A stretch of DNA of 64,000 nucleotides from Eubacteriaceae bacterium (GTDB lineage: Bacteria > Bacillota > Clostridia > Lachnospirales > Lachnospiraceae): contig CAJTDQ010000004.1 in assembly GCA_910574895.1 (NCBI GenBank), forward strand, positions 62,001 to 126,000, written 5' to 3'. Position 1 is the stretch's first letter, and each line of letters begins with the position of its first letter. A model generated the notes under the pieces. The model was not told the origin of the DNA, ran no database searches, and saw only the letters and a program-made list of their open reading frames with translations. Of this stretch, positions 51,915-63,042 are shown piece by piece. The position numbers and the translations under genes were made by a program.

Positions 51915-52532
51915 ATGCGTGCCAAAAGGTTAAATAATGTAGAATGCCTGAGAGTGTTGATTATGTTTATGATTGTGATTCATCATTGCGTAGTTAGCGG
52001 TTTGCATTTAAACAGCAATTTGAATAGTGGAATTGACTGTAACAATATGATGAATTATTTATTAGTTTTTATAAATTCCATTGTTGTTGTGGCCGTGAAT
52101 GTATTCTTTTTGATTTCAGGATATTTTACGATTAATTTTAAATTAAATAAGTTTTTGATGCTTTTGGGAGAGGTAATATTTTACTCATTTTTTATATACA
52201 TAATATTCGCCATTGAGGGTGGAGAGATATTGAATGTAAAAAATATAATGAAGTATTCAATACTTGCTGTTAATGAATATTGGTTTATGACAGTGTATCT
52301 TGTACTAATGTTAGTTGCACCTTACTTAAATATTGTAATAGATTTACTTAAAGCAGATAAAAGAAAATATTCAATTTTTATAATAACTTTGTTTGCCATT
52401 ACTTGTATTTACGGATTTGCTTTTGATAAAGATGTCATTAATGTAAATGGAGGGTATTCATTAATATATGCGATATTTTTATATTTTACAGGAAACTTTA
52501 TTAAGACATATGATATGAATGAAACCAGATAA
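51915..52532 (+). pseudogene. Acyltransferase-3 gene, N-terminal part, split by the Tn4451-like element
   Basis: About 202 residues of native sequence (NNVECLRVLIMFMIVIHHCV with the R...H motif, about six membrane segments) run to 52522; the last codons, ETR and stop, come from the transposon. AAGGAGG precedes the ATG. Joining base 52522 to 62604 continues the frame as DMN-D-CKKMHILYM and gives a 348-residue protein, the family's usual length. The gene is thus broken by one insertion but would be restored by precise excision. Confidence 0.9.
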
Positions 52533-52597
52533 GGAGAAAACTCAAAATTTTGTTTAAGACAGTAGACATAACAACGTGGAGTGAATATCTTATCTGG
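52525..52597. repeat. Inverted repeats in the left transposon end
   Basis: CCAGATAAG at 52525-52533 recurs inverted as CTTATCTGG at 52589-52597, and a similar motif lies in the right end and in the relic end near 53137-53146. These are plausible TnpX binding sites. Confidence 0.5.
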
Positions 52598-52609
52598 AGA
52601 AAATAGAAA

Positions 52610-52984
52610 ATGGCAAATATATTATTTGAGAAACTGGGCGGCAAATATGAGCGGCAAGGAGATTACTTAATACCATGCTTGACTGTACTCGCCGAAGAAG
52701 AACAGCCGATAGGCACATGGGGACAGCGGCATCTGGACTATCTGAAGCAGTATCGCAAGGTTACATACACCAATCTTCTCACAAACGGCAAGCTGAATAC
52801 ATACCTTGCCGACATCGATAGGCAGGCACAGGAACGCTTTGAAAGGCTCATAGAGGGCATGAAACAAGCGCAGGGCATAACGGAACGCCTAAAGGAAGAA
52901 AATGCCTTAGAATGGGTACAACACTTAAATAACATAAGGGCATGTGCGAGACAGATTGTGAACGAGGAAATTGTTTTTGCATAA
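52610..52984 (+). CDS. tnpV: Transposon-encoded TnpV-like protein
   Basis: The 124-residue soluble protein has the TnpV pattern: LFEKLGGKYERQGDYLIPCL, IGTWGQRHLDYLKQYR, TNLLTNGKL...ADIDRQAQER and a C-terminal MNNIRA-like segment (LNNIRACARQIVNEEI). TnpV is carried by Tn4451/Tn4453-type elements and has no established function. It is just inside the left end, followed by a terminator. Confidence 0.8.
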   Translation: MANILFEKLGGKYERQGDYLIPCLTVLAEEEQPIGTWGQRHLDYLKQYRKVTYTNLLTNGKLNTYLADIDRQAQERFERLIEGMKQAQGITERLKEENALEWVQHLNNIRACARQIVNEEIVFA

Positions 52985-52992
52985 GTACAGAA

Positions 52993-53023
52993 AGGCGGCA
53001 GAAAATTGCCGCCTAAAAATTTT
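52993..53023 (+). terminator. Terminator after tnpV
   Basis: AGGCGGCA (52993-53000) pairs perfectly with TGCCGCCT (53007-53014) around six bases, followed by an A/T run. It lies nine bases past the tnpV stop. Confidence 0.8.
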
Positions 53024-53034
53024 CCGAAAAAGTC

Positions 53035-53065
53035 TTGCTTGTTACGTTGCGTAATGATTTATAAT
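53035..53065 (+). promoter_or_regulatory. MerR-type promoter with 19-base spacer and dyad operator
   Basis: TTGCTT (53035-53040) and a perfect TATAAT (53060-53065) are 19 bases apart, the elongated spacing typical of MerR-controlled promoters. The spacer holds a perfect dyad TTACG-TTG-CGTAA at 53042-53054. It drives only the 15-codon remnant at 53088. Confidence 0.65.
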
Positions 53066-53087
53066 ATGTTTCAGGAGGTAAAGGACT

Positions 53088-53135
53088 ATGGCAAAATACA
53101 GGGCAATCCCAAATGGATATATGACAGTTGATTGA
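53088..53135 (+). pseudogene. 5' remnant of a MerR-family regulator gene
   Basis: A strong AGGAGG (53073-53078) and ATG start the peptide MAKYRAIPNGYMTVD before a stop. The first 14 residues match, from memory, the N-terminus of Firmicute MerR-family regulators that continue into the HTH (GYMTVGE...). The sequence after about 53129 belongs to the inverted transposon relic, so the gene was cut off here. The upstream promoter has MerR-type spacing, which supports the call. Confidence 0.5.
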
Positions 53136-53202
53136 TACCAGATAAGGATAAAAATAGATATGTATGGGCAGGAGCATAGACTTTCTCCTGCCACGCCTAT
53201 AT
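53130..53202 (-). repeat. Relic transposon end, inverted copy of the right terminus
   Basis: Read on the minus strand, this matches the live right end (about 62519-62601): the same CTCCTGCC palindrome, AGATATGTAT-type block and ATCTGGT end, with a few changes and a gap of several bases near the tip. It lies directly beyond the stop of the inverted tnpX relic, as at the live right end. Confidence 0.75.
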
Positions 53203-53787
53203 TTAGGCGGTTTGACGTTTGGTACGTTTTCCGTATTCACGTTCTATTTCCCGCATTTCTTCATCCGTTGGAATATCAACAATCCCGACATAGGAATAGT
53301 AGATGTCAATATCCTGTGTCCGTTTCCCGTCTTTTTTCTCGCATTCATGGACTACGATTTTATCCACAAAGGTATTTAAGATTTCGGGCGTTAGCTCGTC
53401 AATACGAGTATATTTTTTGGTGACGGCAATTAGCTTGGAAACATTGGTTGCTTCTGTGTCGGCTTCGCTGACTTCGGATTTCAAGGTTTCGATTTTGTGT
53501 TTTAGCTGTTCCTGCTCAGCTTCATAACCATCTGACAGCTTGTAAAAGCGTTCGTCATTCAGCTTTCCGTTGACATTATCTTCATAGATTTTGCGGAACA
53601 GGCGGTCAAGTTCTTCCATGCGCTTTTCGTCTTTTTCAATCTGTTTCTGCTTTGCGTATAACTCGTATCGGCGTTCCGCAAGGGTAGTGTCAATCTGCTG
53701 TCGGATAAATACCCTTTCAAACTGCTGTAAATAGGACAGGAAATGCTGAAGCTGTTTTAATACCAACTGGTATAGGACATCTTCTCT
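53203..53787 (-). pseudogene. Inverted 3' relic of a second tnpX-like serine recombinase
   Basis: About 194 residues, from REDVLYQLVLKQLQ to the stop, match the C-terminus of the intact TnpX (60860-62518) at most positions, with scattered substitutions (for example KRTQD for KRTQQ). The catalytic N-terminal domain is absent. Homology stops at about 53787, where CHAP-domain sequence on the other strand begins. The differences show it is not a fresh duplication of the live gene but came from a related element. Confidence 0.9.
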
Positions 53788-54108
53788 GACTGCTTCGCAT
53801 CGTGGTGTGCCGACCAGTGCGGCTATCTGGAAAGCGGCATCATCCCGAAATTCTCCCTCTGCTCGGACGGTGTAAACTGGTTCAAGGGCAAAAGGCAATG
53901 GCAGGATAAGAACTATGAGCCGCAGGCAGGCGACCTTATTTTCTTTGATTGGGGGAGCGACGGCTCAATCGACCATGTGGGAATCGTGGAGAGATGCGAG
54001 AATGGAACGGTCTACACCGTGGAGGGTAACTCTGGGGATGCCTGCAAACAGCAGAGCTATCCAGTCGGGAGTGGCTCAATATACGGCTACGGAGTGCCAA
54101 ACTATTAG
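53788..54108 (+). pseudogene. C-terminal fragment of a CHAP-domain cell-wall hydrolase
   Basis: The plus-strand frame reads DCFASWCADQCGYLESGIIP, then about 85 more residues with a GDLIFFDWG segment, SIDHVGIVE and GYGVPNY before TAG. This is the Cys/His catalytic CHAP region of the peptidoglycan amidases carried by conjugative elements, Cys at WCADQ and His at IDHVGI. The N-terminal half is missing and no start or ribosome site exists, so it is a fragment joined to the tnpX relic. Confidence 0.8.
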
Positions 54109-54262
54109 CAGGGCAGGGCAAAAGGAAACCAGAGGGACTTAATCCTTTGTCTGTTCCTTTGCCTTACATAAGGCAATTACTTTAAAAAAGGTTAGATAAA
54201 AAACACCAGAATAGGTTTTTGATTTTTTGAAATATCATAGTTGCTCATAATATAACAAAATG

Positions 54263-54329
54263 ACTATTTGAATAGTTGACACCACATGACTATTGTGATA
54301 GTATACTCAAAAAGAACTATTGCAATAGT
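54263..54329 (+). promoter_or_regulatory. Promoter and three dyad operators of the BlaI-like module
   Basis: Three copies of a 14-base dyad ACTATT-nn-AATAGT occur at 54263-54276, 54289-54302 (one mismatch) and 54316-54329, evenly spaced by 26-27 bases. TTGACA (54276-54281) and TAGTAT (54299-54304) with a 17-base spacer form the promoter, which the first two dyads overlap. BlaI/MecI repressors bind such dyads, so autorepression is likely. Confidence 0.8.
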
Positions 54330-54347
54330 CATTTTAGGAGGTGCAGA

Positions 54348-54707
54348 ATGAGGATGAAGTTATTTGATTCAGAATTAAAAGTGATGGAAGTATTATGGAA
54401 AGAGGGAAACATTACAGCAGGACAGATTTCAAAAATACTGAAAGAGGAAATTGGCTGGAATAGGAATACAACTTACACGGTGATAAAAAAATGTATAGAG
54501 AAAGGCGCAATCGAAAGAATTGAACCTAAATTTATCTGCAAGGCAATGATTTCCAAAGAAGACGTACAGGCATATGAAACAGCGGAATTGATTGAAAGGG
54601 TATTTGACGGTTCTAAGAAAAAATTTTTTGCCGCTTTGTTGTCTGAAAAAACCTTGACACATGATGAACTGCAGCAATTAAAGAATTTGATAAACCAGAT
54701 GAAATGA
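54348..54707 (+). CDS. BlaI/MecI/CopY-family repressor
   Basis: The 119-residue protein has an N-terminal winged helix: LFDSELKVMEVLWKEGNITAGQISKIL, WNRNTTYTVIKKCIEKGAIER. Its C-terminal helical dimerisation part (KKFFAALLSEKTLTHDELQQL) is typical of BlaI/MecI. In this family the repressor is cut or displaced when the partner M56 membrane protease is activated. The ATG at 54348 follows TTAGGAGG; an earlier frame start at 54276 lies inside the operators. It is followed ten bases later by the BlaR1-like gene. Confidence 0.93.
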   Translation: MRMKLFDSELKVMEVLWKEGNITAGQISKILKEEIGWNRNTTYTVIKKCIEKGAIERIEPKFICKAMISKEDVQAYETAELIERVFDGSKKKFFAALLSEKTLTHDELQQLKNLINQMK

Positions 54708-54717
54708 GGTGAAAAGT

Positions 54718-56325
54718 ATGTTGCTTAAAATGAGCATCTCAAGCAGTATATTGATTATCTTGATTGTTATTTTGCGCTTTGTTGCTTTAAACAGGCTGCC
54801 GAAAAAATTTTTTGTGCTGTTGTGGAATATTGCAATACTAAGATTGCTGATACCCTTTGACTTACCGATGCATTATGGACTTGCTTCACCTATGACAAAA
54901 TTAGCGGATAGTGGCATCAGTCACTATAATACTGCCAACAGTCCGCTTATAACAGAAACATTAAAAGAACCAATTACTGATACAACAGTAGCATTATCTT
55001 TAAACAACGTCGCATGGATGACGATTGTTTGGGCAGCAGGTATGGCAGTCATGCTTGTGATTTTCGGGGTATTATATTGGAGAGAATATCAAAAAATACG
55101 GACAGCATTACCTATTTCAAAAGAAAGCGATGATTATTTCAGGTCAGTGACAACGATTCCTAAACGTGTAAAGTTATTGGTATCGGACAGAATCTCAACA
55201 CCTTTAACGTATGGAGTTTTGTCACCTAAAATTATATTCCCGAAAATTTTTAAACTTTCGGACAACACGAAAATAAAATATGTCCTTACGCATGAAATGA
55301 TACATATAAAACGGTTGGATAATCTTTGGAAAATAATTATCCTTATAGTGGTGAGCATACACTGGTTCAATCCTTTCGTTTGGATAATGTATCGGCTTCT
55401 CAACCGTGATATTGAATTATCATGTGATGAAAAAGTGGTTGCTCTTTTGGGAGAAACAGCAAAAAAGGAATATGTTACGACGCTTGTAGATTTGGCGGAA
55501 AAGCAGTATCATTGGTCGTTTATCTCAAATGGATTTGGAAAGAACGCCATACAAGAAAGGATTGTGGCAATCATGACGTTTAAAAAAGCAACTTGTTTAA
55601 GCATAGGCTGCACAGTGGTTTTATTAGCAGGCGCGATTACAGTATTTGCACAAAATGATTTTAAAGTGGCAGGTACTGATGCTGGTACAATGTCTAAAGC
55701 CCACATTACGGAAGACAAAAAAAATTATTTGGAAAAAACTGAAATCGAAGATGGTGAGTATTTACATCATGGAATTACAGTTATCAATGGAGCTTATTAT
55801 TACCAAGGCGTGCGCATCCGCATATTCATGGATTTAAGGGAAAACAAATCTTTTGAAACTTTCAGTTTTGATAAGGAAGGAACCGTTGATATACGGTTAA
55901 TACGGTCAAAAAATAATTCTATTAAAAAAATTGAGTATCTCACAAAAGAAGAAGCAGATGAAATCCTTAGTGATTTTGAAGATAGCGAGTTGGATGGGCA
56001 GACGGAAGAACAGCATACGGGTGTGATAACCAGATTAGCAAAAGAAGAACTTCCGAATAAGGTTATAGATGCCATAAATTCTTGTGATGATGAAAAATGG
56101 TATGTGATTAATGACAAGGAATATCAATATGTTTATTTTAATGGTTTGACTGCCAATTATGCTTTCCAACCAGAGATTTATGCTGACAGCCATAGCGGGA
56201 CTTTACAAATATATGATATGGGTACTTCAACTAAAAATTATGTATTGCTTGAAATTGAACGGAATATTTCACTGAAAATTTTATACAACCATTCGCAAGT
56301 TTCATATACAGAAATAGCTTTATGA
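54718..56325 (+). CDS. BlaR1-like M56 membrane metalloprotease with atypical extracellular sensor domain
   Basis: In the 535-residue protein, membrane segments at about 8-24, 32-50, 100-120 and 205-220 enclose the M56 protease. The zinc motif is HEMIH at 192-196 with a downstream ELSCDEK Glu. A last membrane helix (about 288-308) leads to an outer domain of about 220 residues. That domain has no SxxK/SxN/KTG penicillin-binding set and instead matches the next gene's product (YYYQGVRIRIFMDLRENKSF, GTVDIRLIRSK). It is thus a repressor-inactivating sensor for an unknown signal. The ATG at 54718 follows TGAGGTG. Confidence 0.88.
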   Translation: MLLKMSISSSILIILIVILRFVALNRLPKKFFVLLWNIAILRLLIPFDLPMHYGLASPMTKLADSGISHYNTANSPLITETLKEPITDTTVALSLNNVAWMTIVWAAGMAVMLVIFGVLYWREYQKIRTALPISKESDDYFRSVTTIPKRVKLLVSDRISTPLTYGVLSPKIIFPKIFKLSDNTKIKYVLTHEMIHIKRLDNLWKIIILIVVSIHWFNPFVWIMYRLLNRDIELSCDEKVVALLGETAKKEYVTTLVDLAEKQYHWSFISNGFGKNAIQERIVAIMTFKKATCLSIGCTVVLLAGAITVFAQNDFKVAGTDAGTMSKAHITEDKKNYLEKTEIEDGEYLHHGITVINGAYYYQGVRIRIFMDLRENKSFETFSFDKEGTVDIRLIRSKNNSIKKIEYLTKEEADEILSDFEDSELDGQTEEQHTGVITRLAKEELPNKVIDAINSCDDEKWYVINDKEYQYVYFNGLTANYAFQPEIYADSHSGTLQIYDMGTSTKNYVLLEIERNISLKILYNHSQVSYTEIAL

Positions 56326-56385
56326 TGGAAACATGGTATTGAAACTGGTATGCCATAAAGAGCGGATAAAGGAGGATAATTTCAA

Positions 56386-57075
56386 ATGAAAAGAAAAACA
56401 ATTTTTTCAATAGTTACAATATTTATTTTTATATTCATGGTTTCTATGCCAATAGCTGCATCTGCAAAGGGTACGCCATCTAGTAAGCATGTTTCTGAAT
56501 ATGCCCAATTAGGTATTATAAAGAAAGATGATGCGTTCTTTTATAAAAATAAGCGTATCCGTATTTTTTTTGATGAAAGGGCTGACCGTTCTTTTGAATA
56601 CAGCTTCGTGGATATTGATGGAACAATTGATATACGTCTGTTGAGAAATAAAGCTGGAGATATTAGCAGGCTGAAACGGATACCAAAAAAGAAAGCGAAT
56701 AAAATATTGAAAGATATGCTTGGTTTTGTTCCAAAACACCCCACTGAAAATACGAAACCTCACAAGAAAAAAGAGTATACTGATATTGAGCGTTGCCAGC
56801 TTAAAGATGTCCCTGTCGGAATTAAGAAAGTTATTAAAAAAAGATGCACTAAGAATAAATGGTACATTATCAAATCTTCAAATAGAGATTATGTATATTT
56901 TAAAAAAGTGCCAAAAGACTTTGCATTCCAAATTATCGGCAAAAATTTAAATATACATGATATAGGGAAAAAGAAAAAAAATGGTTCTGTACTGCTCTCT
57001 ATCGGCAGGAATTTTAATTTTACTCTCACTTATAATTCCAAGCCAGTAAAAACCATTATTATAAAAGCTAAATAG
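56386..57075 (+). CDS. Secreted protein homologous to the BlaR1-like sensor domain
   Basis: The 229-residue protein has a signal peptide (basic start, hydrophobic 6-25, likely cut after ASA). The mature part aligns with the outer domain of the preceding protease: FFYKNKRIRIFFDERADRSF, GTIDIRLLRNK, KKANKIL, KWYII....YVYF and LNIHDIG. It is very Lys-rich. AAGGAGG precedes the ATG 60 bases after the protease gene, and a strong terminator follows. It may be a soluble ligand-binding partner, decoy or effector of the sensor. I do not recognise the family. Confidence 0.8.
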   Translation: MKRKTIFSIVTIFIFIFMVSMPIAASAKGTPSSKHVSEYAQLGIIKKDDAFFYKNKRIRIFFDERADRSFEYSFVDIDGTIDIRLLRNKAGDISRLKRIPKKKANKILKDMLGFVPKHPTENTKPHKKKEYTDIERCQLKDVPVGIKKVIKKRCTKNKWYIIKSSNRDYVYFKKVPKDFAFQIIGKNLNIHDIGKKKKNGSVLLSIGRNFNFTLTYNSKPVKTIIIKAK

Positions 57076-57133
57076 AAAGAAACGACTCAAGCAAATGTGT
57101 CTGCGTGGATATTTGGCGATTATCACGAGAGTT

Positions 57134-57165
57134 AATACCCCGCTGTTCACAGCGGGGTATTGGTT
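57134..57165 (+). terminator. Strong terminator ending the cargo module
   Basis: AATACCCCGCTG (57134-57145) pairs perfectly over twelve bases with 57150-57161 around TTCA, followed by GGTTT. Confidence 0.9.
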
Positions 57166-57668
57166 TATTAAAGAAATTCATTTATTTTAGTGCTTGCCAA
57201 AATTTATAGATATATTATCTATTTATGTAATGATATTTTTTACATATTTTGTTCTTTCTATAATCATAGGTAGGACAAGCCCACCAAATAAAAAAAACGA
57301 TGTTCGGGTGGGCTATTTCGTCATACCCTGACCACCCTCCGACTTCGCTTTTTGAAGTTTGGAGGGATTTTTATTGCCTGCAAATAGCAAATTCTATTTA
57401 CATATATCATATCGGGGATGGGCGGACAGCCTGTTAAAAAACTCCTCGTCAGTACATGGGGGCTTTGTACCCTGCAAGTAGAAGTCATATTTCTACATAT
57501 TGGAACTAAAATCTCTCTAAACCGTAAAGGTCACGGAACCTTTGCGGTTTTTCTTTTGTCGTTTTTTATCGGAATGTGCCGAAGGGCTGTTTCCGCTGTT
57601 GGCTGCCGTTCGCCGCCTATCCAATCTGGATTATTACATTTCAAAAATTCAGATTGGAGGAAAAAAGA
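57166..57668. other. Non-coding stretch with hairpins between cargo and sigma-like gene
   Basis: No gene is convincing. AGCCCACC/GGTGGGCT form a hairpin around 57278-57314, and CCCTCC/GGAGGG another near 57344-57367. A third at 57519-57550 has thirteen pairs with one wobble, followed by TTCTTTT, and looks like a terminator or attenuator upstream of the sigma-like gene. Confidence 0.6.
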
Positions 57669-58094
57669 ATGGCATACAACAACGGACGGGAGAACAGGAA
57701 ATGGCTTATCTGGAAAGAAGCCGAGGAAAAAATATTGAGGGAACACGGAGTTGATGAAACCACCATTGAACAAATCCGCACAGACGACAGGGCAGACTTC
57801 AATTCCAACAGGCGGTTTTACCATTGGACAAGCGACTTCGGTGAATACCTTGAGGGGATGGCAGACAGGGAACAGAATACCGAGCTAAAGACGGTTGCTG
57901 ATTTACTGGACGAGATTGAGGACGAAACTCTGTATCGGGCATTGCTTACGGTGGACAGGCGTACCCTGCAAATCATCCTGCTGAAAATGCAGGGCTATTC
58001 CACAAAGGAAATCGCCCCGCTTGTGGGATTGACAACGGGTGCTATCTATGCAAGGCTAGACCATCTGCGGAAAAAGCTGCGGAAGATTTTATAA
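57669..58094 (+). CDS. Sigma-70 region 4-like regulatory protein
   Basis: The 141-residue protein ends in a helix-turn-helix of sigma region 4 type: RRTLQIILLKMQGYSTKEIAPLVGLTTGAIYARLDHLRKKLRKIL. The first 85 residues are charged and helical and include a WTSDFGEYLEGM segment. Proteins of this kind are frequent in clostridial mobile elements and probably control transfer genes. TTGGAGG stands before the ATG at 57669. Confidence 0.85.
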   Translation: MAYNNGRENRKWLIWKEAEEKILREHGVDETTIEQIRTDDRADFNSNRRFYHWTSDFGEYLEGMADREQNTELKTVADLLDEIEDETLYRALLTVDRRTLQIILLKMQGYSTKEIAPLVGLTTGAIYARLDHLRKKLRKIL

Positions 58095-58729
58095 CCAGCT
58101 AATAAAGGCAGCTTTCTGGCGGGCTATTGGGTGGGGGATAAAATTTCCCCACCCAATTTAAAATTATATGAATAAAATTCCCGTCCACAGGGAATACTAA
58201 AAAGTTTGCCCAAAGTATTGACATGGGTACAGCCGCTATGGTATTCTGAAATACCCATGAGGGAATTGGAAGATTGAAAATGAAATAGCACATAGATGGA
58301 AGAATGAAATGTCAGCCAATGGATAAGGCTGACTGCCGCCGAACGTAAGTCGTCCTTTTCGGCTGGCGTATGGCAGCAAGGTTTTGAATCCCAAAGCCGT
58401 TACATAGCATTGCGAATCTGAGCAGGAGAAAACACTCCTGTCATTCGTGGTGCGGTGTGGCGGCTTTTTCATTTATCCAAAAGTCAAGAAAAATCGAATC
58501 CAGAACGGAGGTGGAAAGGACATAGGATTTTCTTTTCGGCGGGTAAGGCAGGTATGGAAGAATACTGCTGCACAGGAAAAATGCTCTGCGGCGTTGTCCA
58601 CAGAGATAGCGAGCATCGGATTGTGTCAGCCACAATCCCGCCCACACAAAACAAGTGGGCGTAACTTACTCAGGGGACATCCCCTGTTTACCCCGAAGAA
58701 AGAAAAATAAGACTGGAGGATTGAGGAAA
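58095..58729. other. Non-coding region with terminator and candidate oriT
   Basis: TTGGGTGGGG (58127-58136) pairs with 58147-58156 as a terminator of the sigma-like gene. Further on, 58639-58686 holds a candidate oriT. A possible 36-residue frame at 58554-58664 (MEEYCCTGKM...) has AAGGCAGG upstream but overlaps the candidate oriT; I cannot tell whether it is expressed. Confidence 0.55.
58639..58686 (+). other. Candidate origin of transfer (oriT)
   Basis: A perfect seven-base inverted repeat CGCCCAC/GTGGGCG (58639-58645, 58655-58661) is followed by TAACTTACT and a second one, CAGGGG/CCCCTG (58671-58686), 44 bases before mobC. Position just upstream of mobC-relaxase and the repeat-then-nic layout fit an oriT. 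The nick site is not identified. Confidence 0.45.
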
Positions 58730-59086
58730 ATGAGCAGAGAAAAATCAGAAAAGGTTGTGCGGAGTGTCCCGATTACTGTCCGATTGAACGAGGAAGAACA
58801 TGAAAAATTAAAGCAGTGCGCCGCCGCTTGCGGTCTGTCCACCGCCGAATTTATGCGCCAGTTATGCAAGGGAAACGCCCCTCAGCCACAGCCTAAAACC
58901 GAGTTTTGGGAACTGCTAAACAAGCTCTATGAGGTGCATGACGCTTTCAAAAAGTGTGTTCCCTACTATCTAACCGCCGCCGAAATCTGTAAGGAGATTG
59001 AGGATTTTATCTTAGAACTGCAACAGAAAATAACTCTCCCACTACGATTTAATGTAGAAGAACTGATGGAACAGGGGGCGGTCTGA
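58730..59086 (+). CDS. mobC: MobC-like relaxosome accessory protein
   Basis: The 118-residue protein has an N-terminal ribbon-helix-helix (SVPITVRLNEEEHEKLKQCA, GLSTAEFMRQL) that binds DNA at oriT, and a helical C-terminus. It precedes the relaxase by one base. TGGAGG before the ATG at 58730 fixes the start; the open frame upstream runs through the candidate oriT. Confidence 0.85.
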   Translation: MSREKSEKVVRSVPITVRLNEEEHEKLKQCAAACGLSTAEFMRQLCKGNAPQPQPKTEFWELLNKLYEVHDAFKKCVPYYLTAAEICKEIEDFILELQQKITLPLRFNVEELMEQGAV

Positions 59087-59087
59087 T

Positions 59088-60452
59088 ATGGCAACAACGA
59101 GCTTATGGCATATCAAAGGGCGGCTGAAAGACCTCATTGATTATGTGGAAAATCCAGAAAAGACCATGCCGAATGAAGATATGCAGGACTTCTTTGACGT
59201 GTTCTCCTATGTGAAGAATCCGTTAAAAACAAACGAGGGCGAGTATGTTTCCGCAATCAACGCTCTGAAAGAAACCGCCTTGCAACAGATGATTTTGACA
59301 AAGAAGCAGTACCAAAAGACAGGCGGATATATTGCATGGCACGGATACCAGAGCTTCAAACCAGACGAGGTAACGCCCGAACAGTGCCACGAAATCGGAT
59401 TAAAATTAGCAGGGGAAATGTGGGGCGATAAATACCAGATAATTGTTGCCACTCATCTTGACAAAGGGCATCTGCACAATCATTTTTGTTTCAACTCTGT
59501 TTCTTTCATAGACGGACAGAAATATAATTACTCAAAATCAGAACAGAAAAGGTTGAGGGAAGCGTCCGACCGCTTATGCCGAGAGTACGGTTTATCGGTG
59601 ATTGAAAACCCCAAGAAAGCACCATCCAGACCGCTTTATCTGGACGAAAAGAACGGAAAACCCACACGGTACAATGTCTATCGGGAGGATTTAAGGGAGG
59701 CAATCAATGGGAGCAGGGATTTACAGCACATGATGAAATACCTTGCCGATAAGGGATATGAGGTTGATTTTTCGGGCAGCCATTGGAAAATGAAGCTGCC
59801 GAAATACAAACATTTCACGAGATTAGACACGCTTGACGAGCGGCTAACCCCCAATTTCATACAGTCATGTTTAGGCGGGGCTTCCCGATATGGGAACTAC
59901 AAAGCAAAGATTTCCTACTCTCCCCATATGCCAGAGCAGTATAAAAATGCATGGAAACCACATCAAAAAACCACGGGGATTTTAGCGTTGTATTACTACT
60001 GGTGCTATCAGTTGGGGATATTCCCCAAAGGCACGGACTACAAGCCGACAAGCCCGCTGATGAAAGAGGAATTGCGGAAGTTAGATGAAATCACCACACA
60101 GGTACGGTATATGTCCAAGCATAACATTTCCACCCTCTCCGACTTACACGCCGACAGGGAGAAAAACCAGACCGAAATGAATAAACTGATTGACTACCGC
60201 CAGCACGTGCGGAACAAGGTACGCCGTGCCACACCAGCCGAAAAAGAAAAAATTCGGGAAGAAAAACGGTGCGTGACGGAGCGGATAACGGAGCTTAGGA
60301 AGCGGCTGAAATATGCAGACAGGATTGAAAAACGCTCCGCACACATTGATGACTGCTTAAACCAAATCTACGACACGATTGAAAATCAGCGGTCAAACCG
60401 ACAGAAACAGCCAGTTAAAACAGCACGCAGGAGGGAGGAACCATTGCGATGA
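59088..60452 (+). CDS. Relaxase / mobilization nuclease
   Basis: The 454-residue protein shows the relaxase metal motif THLDKGHLHNHFCFNSV (about 122-138), with the His triad of the MOBP-type fold, and a candidate catalytic Tyr among GGYIAWHGYQSF upstream. The C-terminal half is basic and helical (about 330-454). It nicks oriT and leads DNA into the recipient. No coupling protein or mating-pore genes are in the element, so it depends on a helper for transfer. ATGA overlap with tnpW. Confidence 0.9.
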   Translation: MATTSLWHIKGRLKDLIDYVENPEKTMPNEDMQDFFDVFSYVKNPLKTNEGEYVSAINALKETALQQMILTKKQYQKTGGYIAWHGYQSFKPDEVTPEQCHEIGLKLAGEMWGDKYQIIVATHLDKGHLHNHFCFNSVSFIDGQKYNYSKSEQKRLREASDRLCREYGLSVIENPKKAPSRPLYLDEKNGKPTRYNVYREDLREAINGSRDLQHMMKYLADKGYEVDFSGSHWKMKLPKYKHFTRLDTLDERLTPNFIQSCLGGASRYGNYKAKISYSPHMPEQYKNAWKPHQKTTGILALYYYWCYQLGIFPKGTDYKPTSPLMKEELRKLDEITTQVRYMSKHNISTLSDLHADREKNQTEMNKLIDYRQHVRNKVRRATPAEKEKIREEKRCVTERITELRKRLKYADRIEKRSAHIDDCLNQIYDTIENQRSNRQKQPVKTARRREEPLR

Positions 60453-60751
60453 GCAGACTGTCCGAGGAAGAAATACAGGCGATTATGGAGGAATACAAGG
60501 ACGTCCCTATGGTAAATCCAGACAAAATATATCCCCCTCTGCCGCCTGTCCAGAACGTCACGCCCCTTGTCCGCATCCCAGAGCCGATGAGCCTTACCGA
60601 GAAAATCGGCGGCACGGAATACACCGTCAACGCCCATTTCCGAAAAGACGGGCGGGACTTGCTTGTAATGCTTACGGATATTTTTCGGCGCAGCGCACAG
60701 GGATATGGATTTTATGATAATGAGAATTGGGGTGATGACGACGGGGAATAA
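60449..60751 (+). CDS. tnpW: Transposon-encoded TnpW-like protein
   Basis: The 100-residue protein has a C-terminal KIGGTEYTVNAHFRKDGRDLLVMLTDIFRR segment, the pattern of TnpW-family proteins of Tn4451-like elements. The N-terminal half is Pro-rich. GGAGGGAGG precedes the ATG, which overlaps the relaxase stop. Function unknown. Confidence 0.75.
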   Translation: MSRLSEEEIQAIMEEYKDVPMVNPDKIYPPLPPVQNVTPLVRIPEPMSLTEKIGGTEYTVNAHFRKDGRDLLVMLTDIFRRSAQGYGFYDNENWGDDDGE

Positions 60752-60782
60752 CAGGCAGCGGAAGAATTATCACTTTAAAGCG

Positions 60783-60811
60783 TTGAAGTTTAAGGGCAGA
60801 TGTGGTATACT
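60783..60811 (+). promoter_or_regulatory. Promoter of tnpX
   Basis: TTGAAG (60783-60788) and TATACT (60806-60811) have a 17-base spacer, 48 bases before the tnpX ATG, in the gap after tnpW. Confidence 0.65.
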
Positions 60812-60859
60812 GTACCTACACTTCACAATACCGTGTCTGCTGTCGGAAAGGAGAGCTTT

Positions 60860-62518
60860 ATGAAAAGACAGCAGGAAGAATTCACGGCATTATATTGTAG
60901 ATTAAGCCAAGATGATGGGCGGGAAGGTGAAAGCAACAGCATTGTAAACCAGAAAGAATATCTGATGAAATACGCAAAAGAACACGGTTTCCCTAACCCG
61001 AAATTCTACGTGGACGACGGCTATACGGGTACGAATTTTGACCGCCCAAGCTTTAAGGAAATGTCGTCGGACATTGAAAAAGGGTTTGTAAAGACCGTCA
61101 TTGTCAAAGACTTATCACGCTTCGGCAGGAACTATATCGAGGTCGGCTCATACTCCGAAATCATCTACCCCGAAGCGGGCGTGAGGTTCATCGCCATCAT
61201 GGACAACGTGGACACGGGCAGCCTTGAGAGCAACGAATTTGCCGCCTTTACCAACCTTTTTAACGAATGGTATCCCAAAAGCACGAGCAAAAAGGTAAAG
61301 GAAGTCAAGAAAGCGAAAGGGCTTGCAGGCGAGCATTTGGGCGCACCGCCTTATGGGTATTTGCGGAATCCAGACGATAAAACACGTTGGCTTGTGGACG
61401 AGGAAGCGGCGGCAGTTGTCCGCAGGATATTCTCACTCTGTATACAGGGAAAAGGCGTGTCAGCCATTGCCACAGCCCTCTGGGAAGACAAGGTGCTTAC
61501 CCCGTCAGCCTACAAGGTGTCAAAGGGAATCGGCGTTGCAAAAAAATCGGAACATCCCTATAACTGGGAAACGTCTATGATTGCATCCATTCTGGAAAAT
61601 GTGGCATATATCGGCGTGACGGAAAGCTTTAAATCCACCCGTTTAGGCTTCAAGAGCAAAAAACGCATCCCAACCGCAAAGGACAGGCGGACGTATATCG
61701 AGGACGCCCATACGCCCATCATTGACAGGGATATGTGGGAAAAAGTGCAGATGATACGGGCGAACAAACGCAGACCGACCAAAAGCGGAACGACAAGTAT
61801 CTTTTCGGGGCTGCTCTATTGTGCCGACTGCGGGGCGAAACTCAGCTTAGCCACAGCAAACGGATATGAGCATTTCCGTTGTTCCATGTATAAAAGGACG
61901 AGCAGGGCAAAGGAATGTACACAGCACTATATCCGAGAGGACGCATTAAAACAATTAGTTCTGAAACAGCTCCAGCAGTTCCTCTCCTATTTACAGCAGT
62001 TTGAGCGTGTGTTTATCCGACAGCAGATTGACGCCACCCTTGCAGAACGCAGATACGAGTTATCCGCAAAGCAGAAACAGATAGAAAAGGACGAAAAGCG
62101 GATAAAGGAGCTTGACCGCCTGTTCCGCAAAATCTATGAGGATAATGTCAACGGAAAGCTGAATGACGAACGCTTTTACAAGCTGTCGGACGGATATGAA
62201 GCCGAGCAGGAACAGCTAAAGCAGGAAATCGAAACCTTGACAGCCGAGGTCAGCGAAGCCGACACGGAAGCGACCAATGTCACCAAGCTGATAGCCGTCA
62301 CCAAGAAATACACCCGCATCGACGAGCTGACGCCCGAAGTCCTAAACGCATTTGTGGATAAAATCGTAGTCCATGAGCGTGAGAAAAAAGACGGGAAACG
62401 GACACAGCAAATCGACATCTACTATTCCTATGTCGGGATTGTGGACATCCCCACGGATGCGGAAATGCGGGAAATGGAACGAGAATATACGCAGCGTACC
62501 AAACGTCAAACCGCCTAA
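60860..62518 (+). CDS. tnpX: Large serine recombinase TnpX
   Basis: The 552-residue protein excises and inserts the element. It has an N-terminal resolvase domain with TALYCRLSQDD (catalytic Ser16), VKDLSRFGRNY and a following recombinase domain (GAPPYGYLRNP, ENVAYIG). The zinc ribbon is CADCGAKL...FRCSMYKR, followed by a long coiled coil (about 385-480) and a DELTPEVLNAFVDKIVVHE tail. Large serine recombinases of this type act at GA dinucleotides. GGAAAGGAG precedes the ATG at 60860. It appears intact. Confidence 0.95.
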   Translation: MKRQQEEFTALYCRLSQDDGREGESNSIVNQKEYLMKYAKEHGFPNPKFYVDDGYTGTNFDRPSFKEMSSDIEKGFVKTVIVKDLSRFGRNYIEVGSYSEIIYPEAGVRFIAIMDNVDTGSLESNEFAAFTNLFNEWYPKSTSKKVKEVKKAKGLAGEHLGAPPYGYLRNPDDKTRWLVDEEAAAVVRRIFSLCIQGKGVSAIATALWEDKVLTPSAYKVSKGIGVAKKSEHPYNWETSMIASILENVAYIGVTESFKSTRLGFKSKKRIPTAKDRRTYIEDAHTPIIDRDMWEKVQMIRANKRRPTKSGTTSIFSGLLYCADCGAKLSLATANGYEHFRCSMYKRTSRAKECTQHYIREDALKQLVLKQLQQFLSYLQQFERVFIRQQIDATLAERRYELSAKQKQIEKDEKRIKELDRLFRKIYEDNVNGKLNDERFYKLSDGYEAEQEQLKQEIETLTAEVSEADTEATNVTKLIAVTKKYTRIDELTPEVLNAFVDKIVVHEREKKDGKRTQQIDIYYSYVGIVDIPTDAEMREMEREYTQRTKRQTA

Positions 62519-62603
62519 ATACAGGCGTGGCAGGAGAAAATCTATGCTCCTGCCGATACATATCTATTTTTTATCCCTATCTGGTTTAACCCATAATCAA
62601 CGA

Positions 62604-63042
62604 CTGTAAAAAAATGCACATCTTGTATATGCTGGCAGGGGGAGTAAATTTCTTGCTTGCGTTATTCTTAGTTTATTTAGGAAAAGGGAATATGGCATGG
62701 AAGTTATTTTCATATAATAATCCAATAGTTTATATTCAGGCAATAGCGTTATTTATTTCTTTTTTAACAATAAAGTGCAATGGAAGGATTGGAATATTTA
62801 TAGGACGTTTTGGCCAATATACTTTAGGAATATATTTAATTCATTCTCATAGTCTTTTAATTCCTTACAGATTTAGGGAGTTAGAGATTATTATGAAAGA
62901 TATGGGAGTGATATTCTGGCCTTTTCTAATCTTACTTTATTGTATCATTCTATATATTGTATGTAATTGTGTGGAAATTCTTCGAAAGAAAATTGCGAAG
63001 TGTTTCGTAAAAATACGTACCATAAATGTAAAAAGAGTTTAA
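62604..63042 (+). pseudogene. Acyltransferase-3 gene, C-terminal part, split by the element
   Basis: Native sequence resumes after GA at 62602-62603: the frame reads CKKMHILYMLAGGVNFLLAL, then about three further membrane segments (FGQYTLGIYLIHSHSLL) and the stop. An ATG at 62614 opens the frame without a ribosome site, so the fragment is probably not translated alone. It completes the N-terminal part at 51915-52522. Confidence 0.9.

Follow-up and report, generated by a model that had tools for sequence, protein, structure and literature searches.

A transposon-borne BlaI/M56 operon pairs a sensor carrying an undescribed outer module with a secreted homologue

We analysed a window of 64,000 nucleotides from a Eubacteriaceae bacterium (assembly GCA_910574895.1, contig CAJTDQ010000004.1, positions 62,001 to 126,000) and found that the resistance-type cargo slot of a transposon is occupied there by a unit encoding a BlaI-family repressor, an M56 protease-sensor and a secreted protein homologous to the outer part of that sensor. 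This three-gene circuit probably serves for inducible protection against an extracellular agent. By analogy with BlaR1 and beta-lactamase, which both bind beta-lactams, the unit may be a mobile, inducible protection cassette in which one type of ligand-binding module serves both the sensor and the secreted effector, a reading to which we give close to an even chance. The system is a variant of the BlaI/M56 type with an undescribed outer module that is used by several signalling systems.

The unit forms one operon on the + strand, 54263-57166, in which three BlaI-type operators and a promoter are followed by blaI, the gene for the M56 protease-sensor and the gene for the secreted protein, with a strong hairpin as the closing element. 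Its features are as follows.

54263..54276, no strand assigned: operator 1, ACTATTTGAATAGT, exact match to ACTAYYNNRRTAGT
54276..54304, + strand: promoter-like TTGACA-17-TAGTAT, 10 of 12 consensus matches
54289..54302, no strand assigned: operator 2, ACTATTGTGATAGT, exact match to ACTAYYNNRRTAGT, within the promoter
54316..54329, no strand assigned: operator 3, ACTATTGCAATAGT, exact match to ACTAYYNNRRTAGT
54348..54707, + strand: BlaI-family repressor, 119 amino acids (aa), Pfam Penicillinase_R 1.3e-23
54718..56325, + strand: M56 protease-sensor P0001, 535 aa, Pfam Peptidase_M56 3.2e-47 at residues 2-285
55759..55962, + strand: domain A of the M56 protein, profile match at residues 351-418 in the 538-aa reading
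56029..56316, + strand: domain B of the M56 protein, profile match at residues 441-536
56386..57075, + strand: secreted paralogue P0002, 229 aa, mature part strongly basic, assigned by homology to the M56 outer region
56500..56703, + strand: domain A of P0002, profile match at residues 39-106
56788..57069, + strand: domain B of P0002, profile match at residues 135-228
57129..57166, + strand: terminator-like hairpin, -23.5 kcal/mol, z -6.2

The exact ACTAYYNNRRTAGT sites in the window number three (starting at 54263, 54289 and 54316), compared with 0.08 expected. As BlaI/BlaR1 systems require, these dyads overlap the promoter, and we predict that they act as operators. The promoter scan, taken together, returned 14 matches versus 15.1 in shuffled sequence; the promoter is therefore called because the operators coincide with TTGACA-17-TAGTAT, not because of the scan statistics. 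The hairpin was absent from the output of the pattern scan that gave the promoter. An earlier note on this DNA had credited the unit with its own promoter and terminator, and both were recovered here. A like promoter/operator layout was read by eye 5' of blaI in two other loci (L013 and L014), and ACTAYYNNRRTAGT occurred in the 200 nt upstream of 47 of 108 distinct blaI domains, versus none of 108 control stretches behind blaI. No ACTAYYNNRRTAGT site lies ahead of the secreted gene in the window operon; this gene is the third of its operon both here and in L013.

The repressor and the protease are classical, as the earlier note had stated, judging from the Pfam matches above and from a HEMIH (HExxH) motif at residue 192 of P0001. 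The repressor also scored 68 bits with CopY_TcrY and 62 bits with BlaI_of_BCL, both under the NCBIfam cut-offs. In a PDB sequence comparison, residues 2-286 of P0001 aligned with residues 4-299 of the solved BlaR1 8exp, that is, over the protease part only, and blaR1_generic gave 121 bits over residues 6-336 against a cut-off of 400. The outer region had no Pfam or NCBIfam match at E<=1, all matches being confined to the M56 part, and fold comparisons returned no beta-lactam-sensor fold and no confident match of any kind. Within the 220-residue outer part, the loose penicillin-binding motifs SFDK, SKN and HTG are present and a K-T/S-G motif was not found; since loose forms do occur, the motifs alone argue only weakly against penicillin binding. 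Pfam, NCBIfam and the comparison with solved BlaR1 recovered no C-terminal penicillin-binding sensor domain, and on these sequence grounds we rejected a beta-lactam sensor identity, which supports the note's view of a non-penicillin-binding sensor in so far as the outer domain is not recognisably penicillin-binding.

The outer region does match the adjacent secreted protein, again as the note had claimed, and the homology extends across two domains that we name A (~68 aa) and B (~95 aa), with a phmmer E-value of 1.3e-24 and 35% identity over 176 residues. Neither domain had a match in Pfam, NCBIfam or the PDB sequences, and fold comparison gave no confident match; the AF2 model of domain A from the M56 protein reached a pLDDT of 88.1 and a pTM of 0.76. 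P0002 carries a signal sequence recognised by eye, and the lipobox pattern detected no lipobox of the kind that marks an immunity lipoprotein. Mature P0002 has an isoelectric point (pI) of 10.2 and a net charge of +30 (K+R-D-E), and the outer part of P0001 is acidic (pI 4.8, net -16). Pfam and NCBIfam gave P0002 no beta-lactamase or penicillin-binding protein (PBP) match that would mark it as an output of the beta-lactamase/PBP2a kind, and we found no third copy of the shared region in the window's own genome. Membership of a defence system was also rejected: PADLOC returned nothing for P0001 or P0002 and only weak matches for the repressor (1e-3 or worse), and PHROGs had no match for P0002.

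Judged by profile matches, the observation is more general than the window, as domain A recurs across several signalling contexts. Among genomes of the family, P0002 was matched in 19 of 397 by whole-genome search and the A profile A3 in 39 of 397 (E<=1e-4), while the A+B alignment A2 was matched in 14 of 392 order genomes and 3 of 398 phylum genomes; each count includes the window's genome. Once identical proteins and ten copies of the transposon were dropped, we had fetched 83 distinct A-bearing proteins. In 58 of them, A is fused to M56, with blaI no more than 100 nt upstream in 55; this share is inflated, because 17 of the 58 were first met via an M56-seeded scan. The outer parts of these fusions have a pI of 5 or less in 56 of the 58 (median 4.4). 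Thirteen of the 83 are standalone A proteins (pI 4.1-5.2) whose genes have a histidine kinase gene no more than 200 nt upstream, six further standalone ones adjoin an M56 gene (the window, L013, L068, L107, L109 and L191), and two more lie behind ABC exporters in radical-SAM peptide clusters. The remainder comprises three proteins without such neighbours, one of them a 66-residue fragment, and one cut by a contig end. Domain B is rarer than A and was found in the window, L013, G379 (L107), G192 (L108) and G906 (L145). The earlier note had asked for a tabulation of M56 carriers and had made its proposal depend on homologous pairs elsewhere; the table holds the 58 fusions and the six standalone proteins beside M56, and such pairs occur at L013, L068, L107 and L205/L151.

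Several of these loci have features of their own. In the 13 kinase-linked cases (L110, L152, L189, L192-L195, L198-L201, L203 and L204), the response regulator gene comes first, the histidine kinase gene second, and then a gene for a protein or lipoprotein that has A once or twice; the set is preceded by an ABC/FtsX pair in L189 and by an FtsX-like permease in L152. The start of the L191 protein resembles the last M56 membrane segment, so that this may be a split gene. In L109 (3642-4055), a 137-aa A protein resembles, by eye, a recent internal-deletion copy of the adjacent M56 gene, and detached sensor domains might originate through partial copying of this type. Tandem units of ~45 bp, several with an AGGAGG-like core, separate blaI from the secreted A+B gene in L107 (7440-7900), and in L086 / L113 (4485-6713) a long DDWDDED-type acidic repeat separates the protease from domain A.

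The two peptide clusters, G347 (L205/L151/L225) and G668 (L224), are homologous and bear on the question of whether an A protein can be regulated by BlaI. Both run blaI, M56, PqqD-like, radical SAM, short Cys-rich peptide, two ABC exporters and a lipoprotein with two A domains. The precursor-like peptides (L225 5519-5671, 50 aa, and L224 11439-11597, 52 aa) each contain five cysteines and share 72% identity, and the five other cluster proteins compared are 44-57% identical. A radical-SAM/SPASM gene adjoins both peptides, and the clusters, headed by BlaI and M56, are bordered by genes that look relaxase-like by eye. Exact operators number three in L225 (0.00 expected) and two in L224 (0.01 expected); in each cluster exact sites precede blaI, and a further one starts 78 nt (L225) or 91 nt (L224) before the A lipoprotein. 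Because an exact operator precedes the lipoprotein in both clusters, the standalone A protein is a probable direct target of BlaI, and an A protein can thus apparently be a direct BlaI output. By sequence, the cluster A protein is an acidic lipoprotein (pI 4.5).

The unit lies within a mobile element, whose ends were fixed by comparison with other copies.

52515..62594, + strand: whole mobile element, 10,080 bp, ends fixed by comparison with L003-L012
52610..52984, + strand: TnpV-like gene, left border of the cargo slot, DNA match to TnpV-annotated records, no NCBIfam match at 1e-4
53203..53898, - strand: second serine recombinase remnant, inverted, an inverted-repeat copy of recombinase sequence
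57576..58094, + strand: sigma-70-like gene, right border of the cargo slot, DNA match to sigma-70 family records, NCBIfam sigma70-ECF 1.2e-8 (sub-cut-off)
59088..60452, + strand: relaxase, NCBIfam relax_SAG1250 5.3e-21 (sub-cut-off)
60800..62518, + strand: large serine recombinase, NCBIfam CcrB 4.1e-34 and XisF 3.7e-29 (both sub-cut-off)

Copies of the element that are 99.2-100% identical lie at ten other sites (L003-L012, from the best 80 of 443 relatives), with different flanks in each, in records titled Lachnospiraceae, Eubacteriaceae, Clostridia and Erysipelotrichales. A recombinase, a relaxase, sharp ends and several insertion sites identify it as a mobilisable serine-recombinase transposon, with NCBIfam matches below the curated cut-offs. 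Outside the BlaI/M56/secreted unit, the element holds mobility genes and remnants only, which bears out the note's statement that the unit is the only apparent cargo. Seventeen plasmid records matched the slot borders, and tet genes are named in 5 of the 15 listed; both plasmid records that we opened have the order TnpV, tet, sigma-70, with tet(O) or tet(O/32/O)+tet(40) in the slot. The right backbone was matched in 58 of the 397 family-sample genomes, and six of the seven sister elements with the longest right-backbone matches (L243-L249) carry a transporter set in the cargo slot.

L243: MATE (Pfam)
L244: response regulator-kinase-ABC-FtsX (Pfam)
L245: TetR+MFS (by eye, from likeness to L247)
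L246: TetR+ABC (Pfam)
L247: TetR+MFS (Pfam)
L248: TetR+ABC (by eye, from likeness to L246), in the window's own genome, C6:138500-153000

The element also contains a 622-bp inverted repeat, 88% identical (53137-53757 / 61964-62585), derived from a decayed second recombinase gene, and it interrupts what appears to be a single acyltransferase-like gene (51915-52532 / 62614-63042) in a glycan gene cluster.

Outside the element, a homologue of the unit in Bacterium D16-36 (L013) is ~80% identical, and its alignment is limited to the unit itself (54257-57074); the unit is therefore an acquired module. A plasmid or phage origin was rejected, as plasmid, phage and viral-contig searches gave no full relative: the unit DNA and the L151 lipoprotein had no match in plasmids, P0002 had none in plasmids or phages, A2 found no relative in viral contigs, and of 41 plasmid records matching P0001 none spanned 80% of it. 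Between the window and L013, the ratio of non-synonymous to synonymous substitution (dN/dS) is 0.06 for blaI, 0.17 for the M56 gene up to A and 0.24 for the secreted gene, with dS of 0.69-0.81 (0.69 for the secreted gene). These values indicate that the secreted gene is under purifying selection. In a tree of eight A+B sequences, one fused row of which forms a long branch, the secreted forms of the window, L007, L013 and G379 make one clade (support 99/99), apart from the M56-fused forms. Because the secreted sequences form their own clade, the secreted form is an old lineage and not a fresh copy of its neighbour.

If the unit is an inducible protection cassette, it would work as follows. BlaI, bound to the three observed sites, would shut the single promoter. 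The acidic A+B region of the M56 protein would read an extracellular ligand, upon which, as in BlaR1/BlaI, the cytoplasmic protease would remove BlaI and switch the operon on. The secreted basic A+B protein would then bind the same ligand, or a surface site under attack by it, outside the cell; we take it to be the effector because it is the sole operon product outside the switch. The ligand, the least certain step, would most likely be an envelope-acting antimicrobial agent, perhaps a cationic peptide. A cationic ligand would suit the acidity seen in 56 of the 58 M56-fused outer regions and in the 13 A proteins linked to kinases, and the presence of A proteins in radical-SAM peptide clusters hints at a ligand of the peptide type. 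The basic charge of P0002, which does not follow from the cassette reading, could serve to anchor it to the anionic wall. The operator before the A lipoprotein in two clusters, together with the resistance-type slot, tilts the evidence toward the secreted protein being a regulated output.

Several observations weigh against this reading. The ligand, its binding and the resistance conferred are predictions from sequence and analogy, and 'same ligand' is not obvious, because P0002 and nearly all sensors carry charges of opposite sign. One of the seven sister elements (L249) has no recognisable resistance cargo. The A profile is found in the G347 M56 protein (6.8e-12) and not in that of G668, where the radical-SAM gene is interrupted. 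Standalone A genes outside the two peptide clusters have no operator within 300 nt upstream, and in G379 no such operator was found at the secreted A+B gene, 440 nt behind blaI. The broad operator pattern returned the three operators and 3 further exact matches in the window's genome, versus 14 for the reversed-pattern control. By these pattern counts, the window operon is the only place in its genome with clustered operator sites, although other targets are possible. Allowing at most one mismatch, the stricter pattern TGACTATTNNAATAGT hit the three operators and a single further site, within an ABC gene; with two mismatches it gave 46 further rows, of which two were these operators read on the opposite strand, and the reversed control was higher overall. 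Of the three further exact matches to the broad pattern, one lies 34 nt before a 216-aa open reading frame (L251, C3:246589-246602).

Also counting against an effector, the 13 standalone A proteins behind a histidine kinase resemble accessories more. This leads to the main rival, which we regard as possible, if tentative: secreted A+B binds the outer part of M56 or presents the ligand to it and so tunes signalling, with the operon controlling only itself and some chromosomal genes. Such a role is kept in play by 13 of the 25 standalone A proteins, whose genes lie directly behind those of a histidine kinase and a response regulator; those kinases have no A by profile, and the neighbouring M56 proteins of L068 and L107 likewise have no detectable A, as if it were supplied in trans. 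For the kinase-linked A systems and for L068 and L107, an accessory or feedback role fits at least as well as an effector role. The opposite charges of sensor and secreted protein in the window would suit such binding, but this opposition is not general, since the G192 sensor has a basic A+B region (pI 9.5) and no secreted partner was seen beside it. Against this role also stand the resistance-type slot of the unit and the operator of the A lipoprotein, which lies at the far end of both peptide clusters as it would for a target gene.

The remaining explanations fare worse. The earlier note had suggested decoy titration or sensor-domain dimerisation; its account of classical parts, a sensor that is not recognisably penicillin-binding and a real secreted homologue stood, and these two proposals were not borne out. 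A decoy would merely absorb signal, so that the switch answers high doses, and the operon does encode a soluble paralogue of its own sensor domain. However, the L013 M56 protein ends after A, with B missing, while its secreted partner retains A+B, and in G379 the neighbouring M56 has neither domain by profile; with such differing domain contents a strict match of sensor and decoy is not preserved, and we consider this reading unlikely. Still less probable is an antibacterial or cell-wall-binding product that M56 senses directly or by its effects: P0002 is small, secreted and basic, and A proteins end peptide-production clusters, but these clusters already hold their own precursor-like peptide and their A protein is acidic. 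That the secreted gene is a hitch-hiking duplicate without current function, as the loss of sensor domain B in L013 might suggest, is highly improbable given that the three reading frames are intact in the window and in each of the ten further copies and that dN/dS is low for each gene.

A broader proposal, possible though doubtful, is that domain A, either alone or together with B, serves outside the cytoplasm as a not previously described module for recognising envelope-active peptides. It would be used in three settings, namely the M56 fusion, the lipoprotein beside a histidine kinase and the soluble or lipid-anchored immunity protein, including that of radical-SAM clusters, in which it would be common to sensor and immunity protein, and the window element would be a travelling 'detect and neutralise' cassette without a producer. 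BlaR1-type M56 sensors have been studied for beta-lactams; since 58 M56 proteins carry a different outer domain, part of the family probably senses other ligands. The BlaI-type operator before the A protein in two peptide clusters points to a concrete candidate inducer, and because the A+B protein is secreted, encoded in the operon and present in one copy, the function of the domain is open to direct test. In the open-licence PMC literature we found no paper on an M56/BlaI sensor with domain A/B or on such a pairing, which is not proof of absence.

Four known systems offer comparisons. LanI-kind proteins are immunity lipoproteins of peptide-antibiotic clusters; similarly, each of the two radical-SAM peptide clusters ends with an A lipoprotein preceded by a BlaI-type operator, whereas P0002 is basic, has no lipobox and has no biosynthesis genes nearby. 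CpxP (with CpxA) and SaeP (with SaeS) are accessory proteins of two-component systems, and the 13 A proteins directly behind kinase and regulator genes resemble them; in the window, by contrast, the partner is a protease-repressor pair and the sensor itself carries the domain. Elements with tet(O)-type cargo share the TnpV and sigma-70 borders and differ in their cargo, which here is the BlaI-M56-A/B unit. In the BlaR1 system, according to PMC7593790, sensing of beta-lactams falls to the outer domain and inactivation of BlaI to the protease, and beta-lactamase is the output; PMC3305447 adds that a cell-wall dipeptide can also act on BlaI. Compared with BlaI-BlaR1-BlaZ and MecI-MecR1, the window system has A+B as the outer part, with no penicillin-binding domain found, and a third gene that is neither beta-lactamase nor PBP by Pfam and NCBIfam. 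It shares with them the BlaI-family repressor, the M56 protease with HExxH, the promoter operators and the proposed handling of one ligand by both sensor and output.

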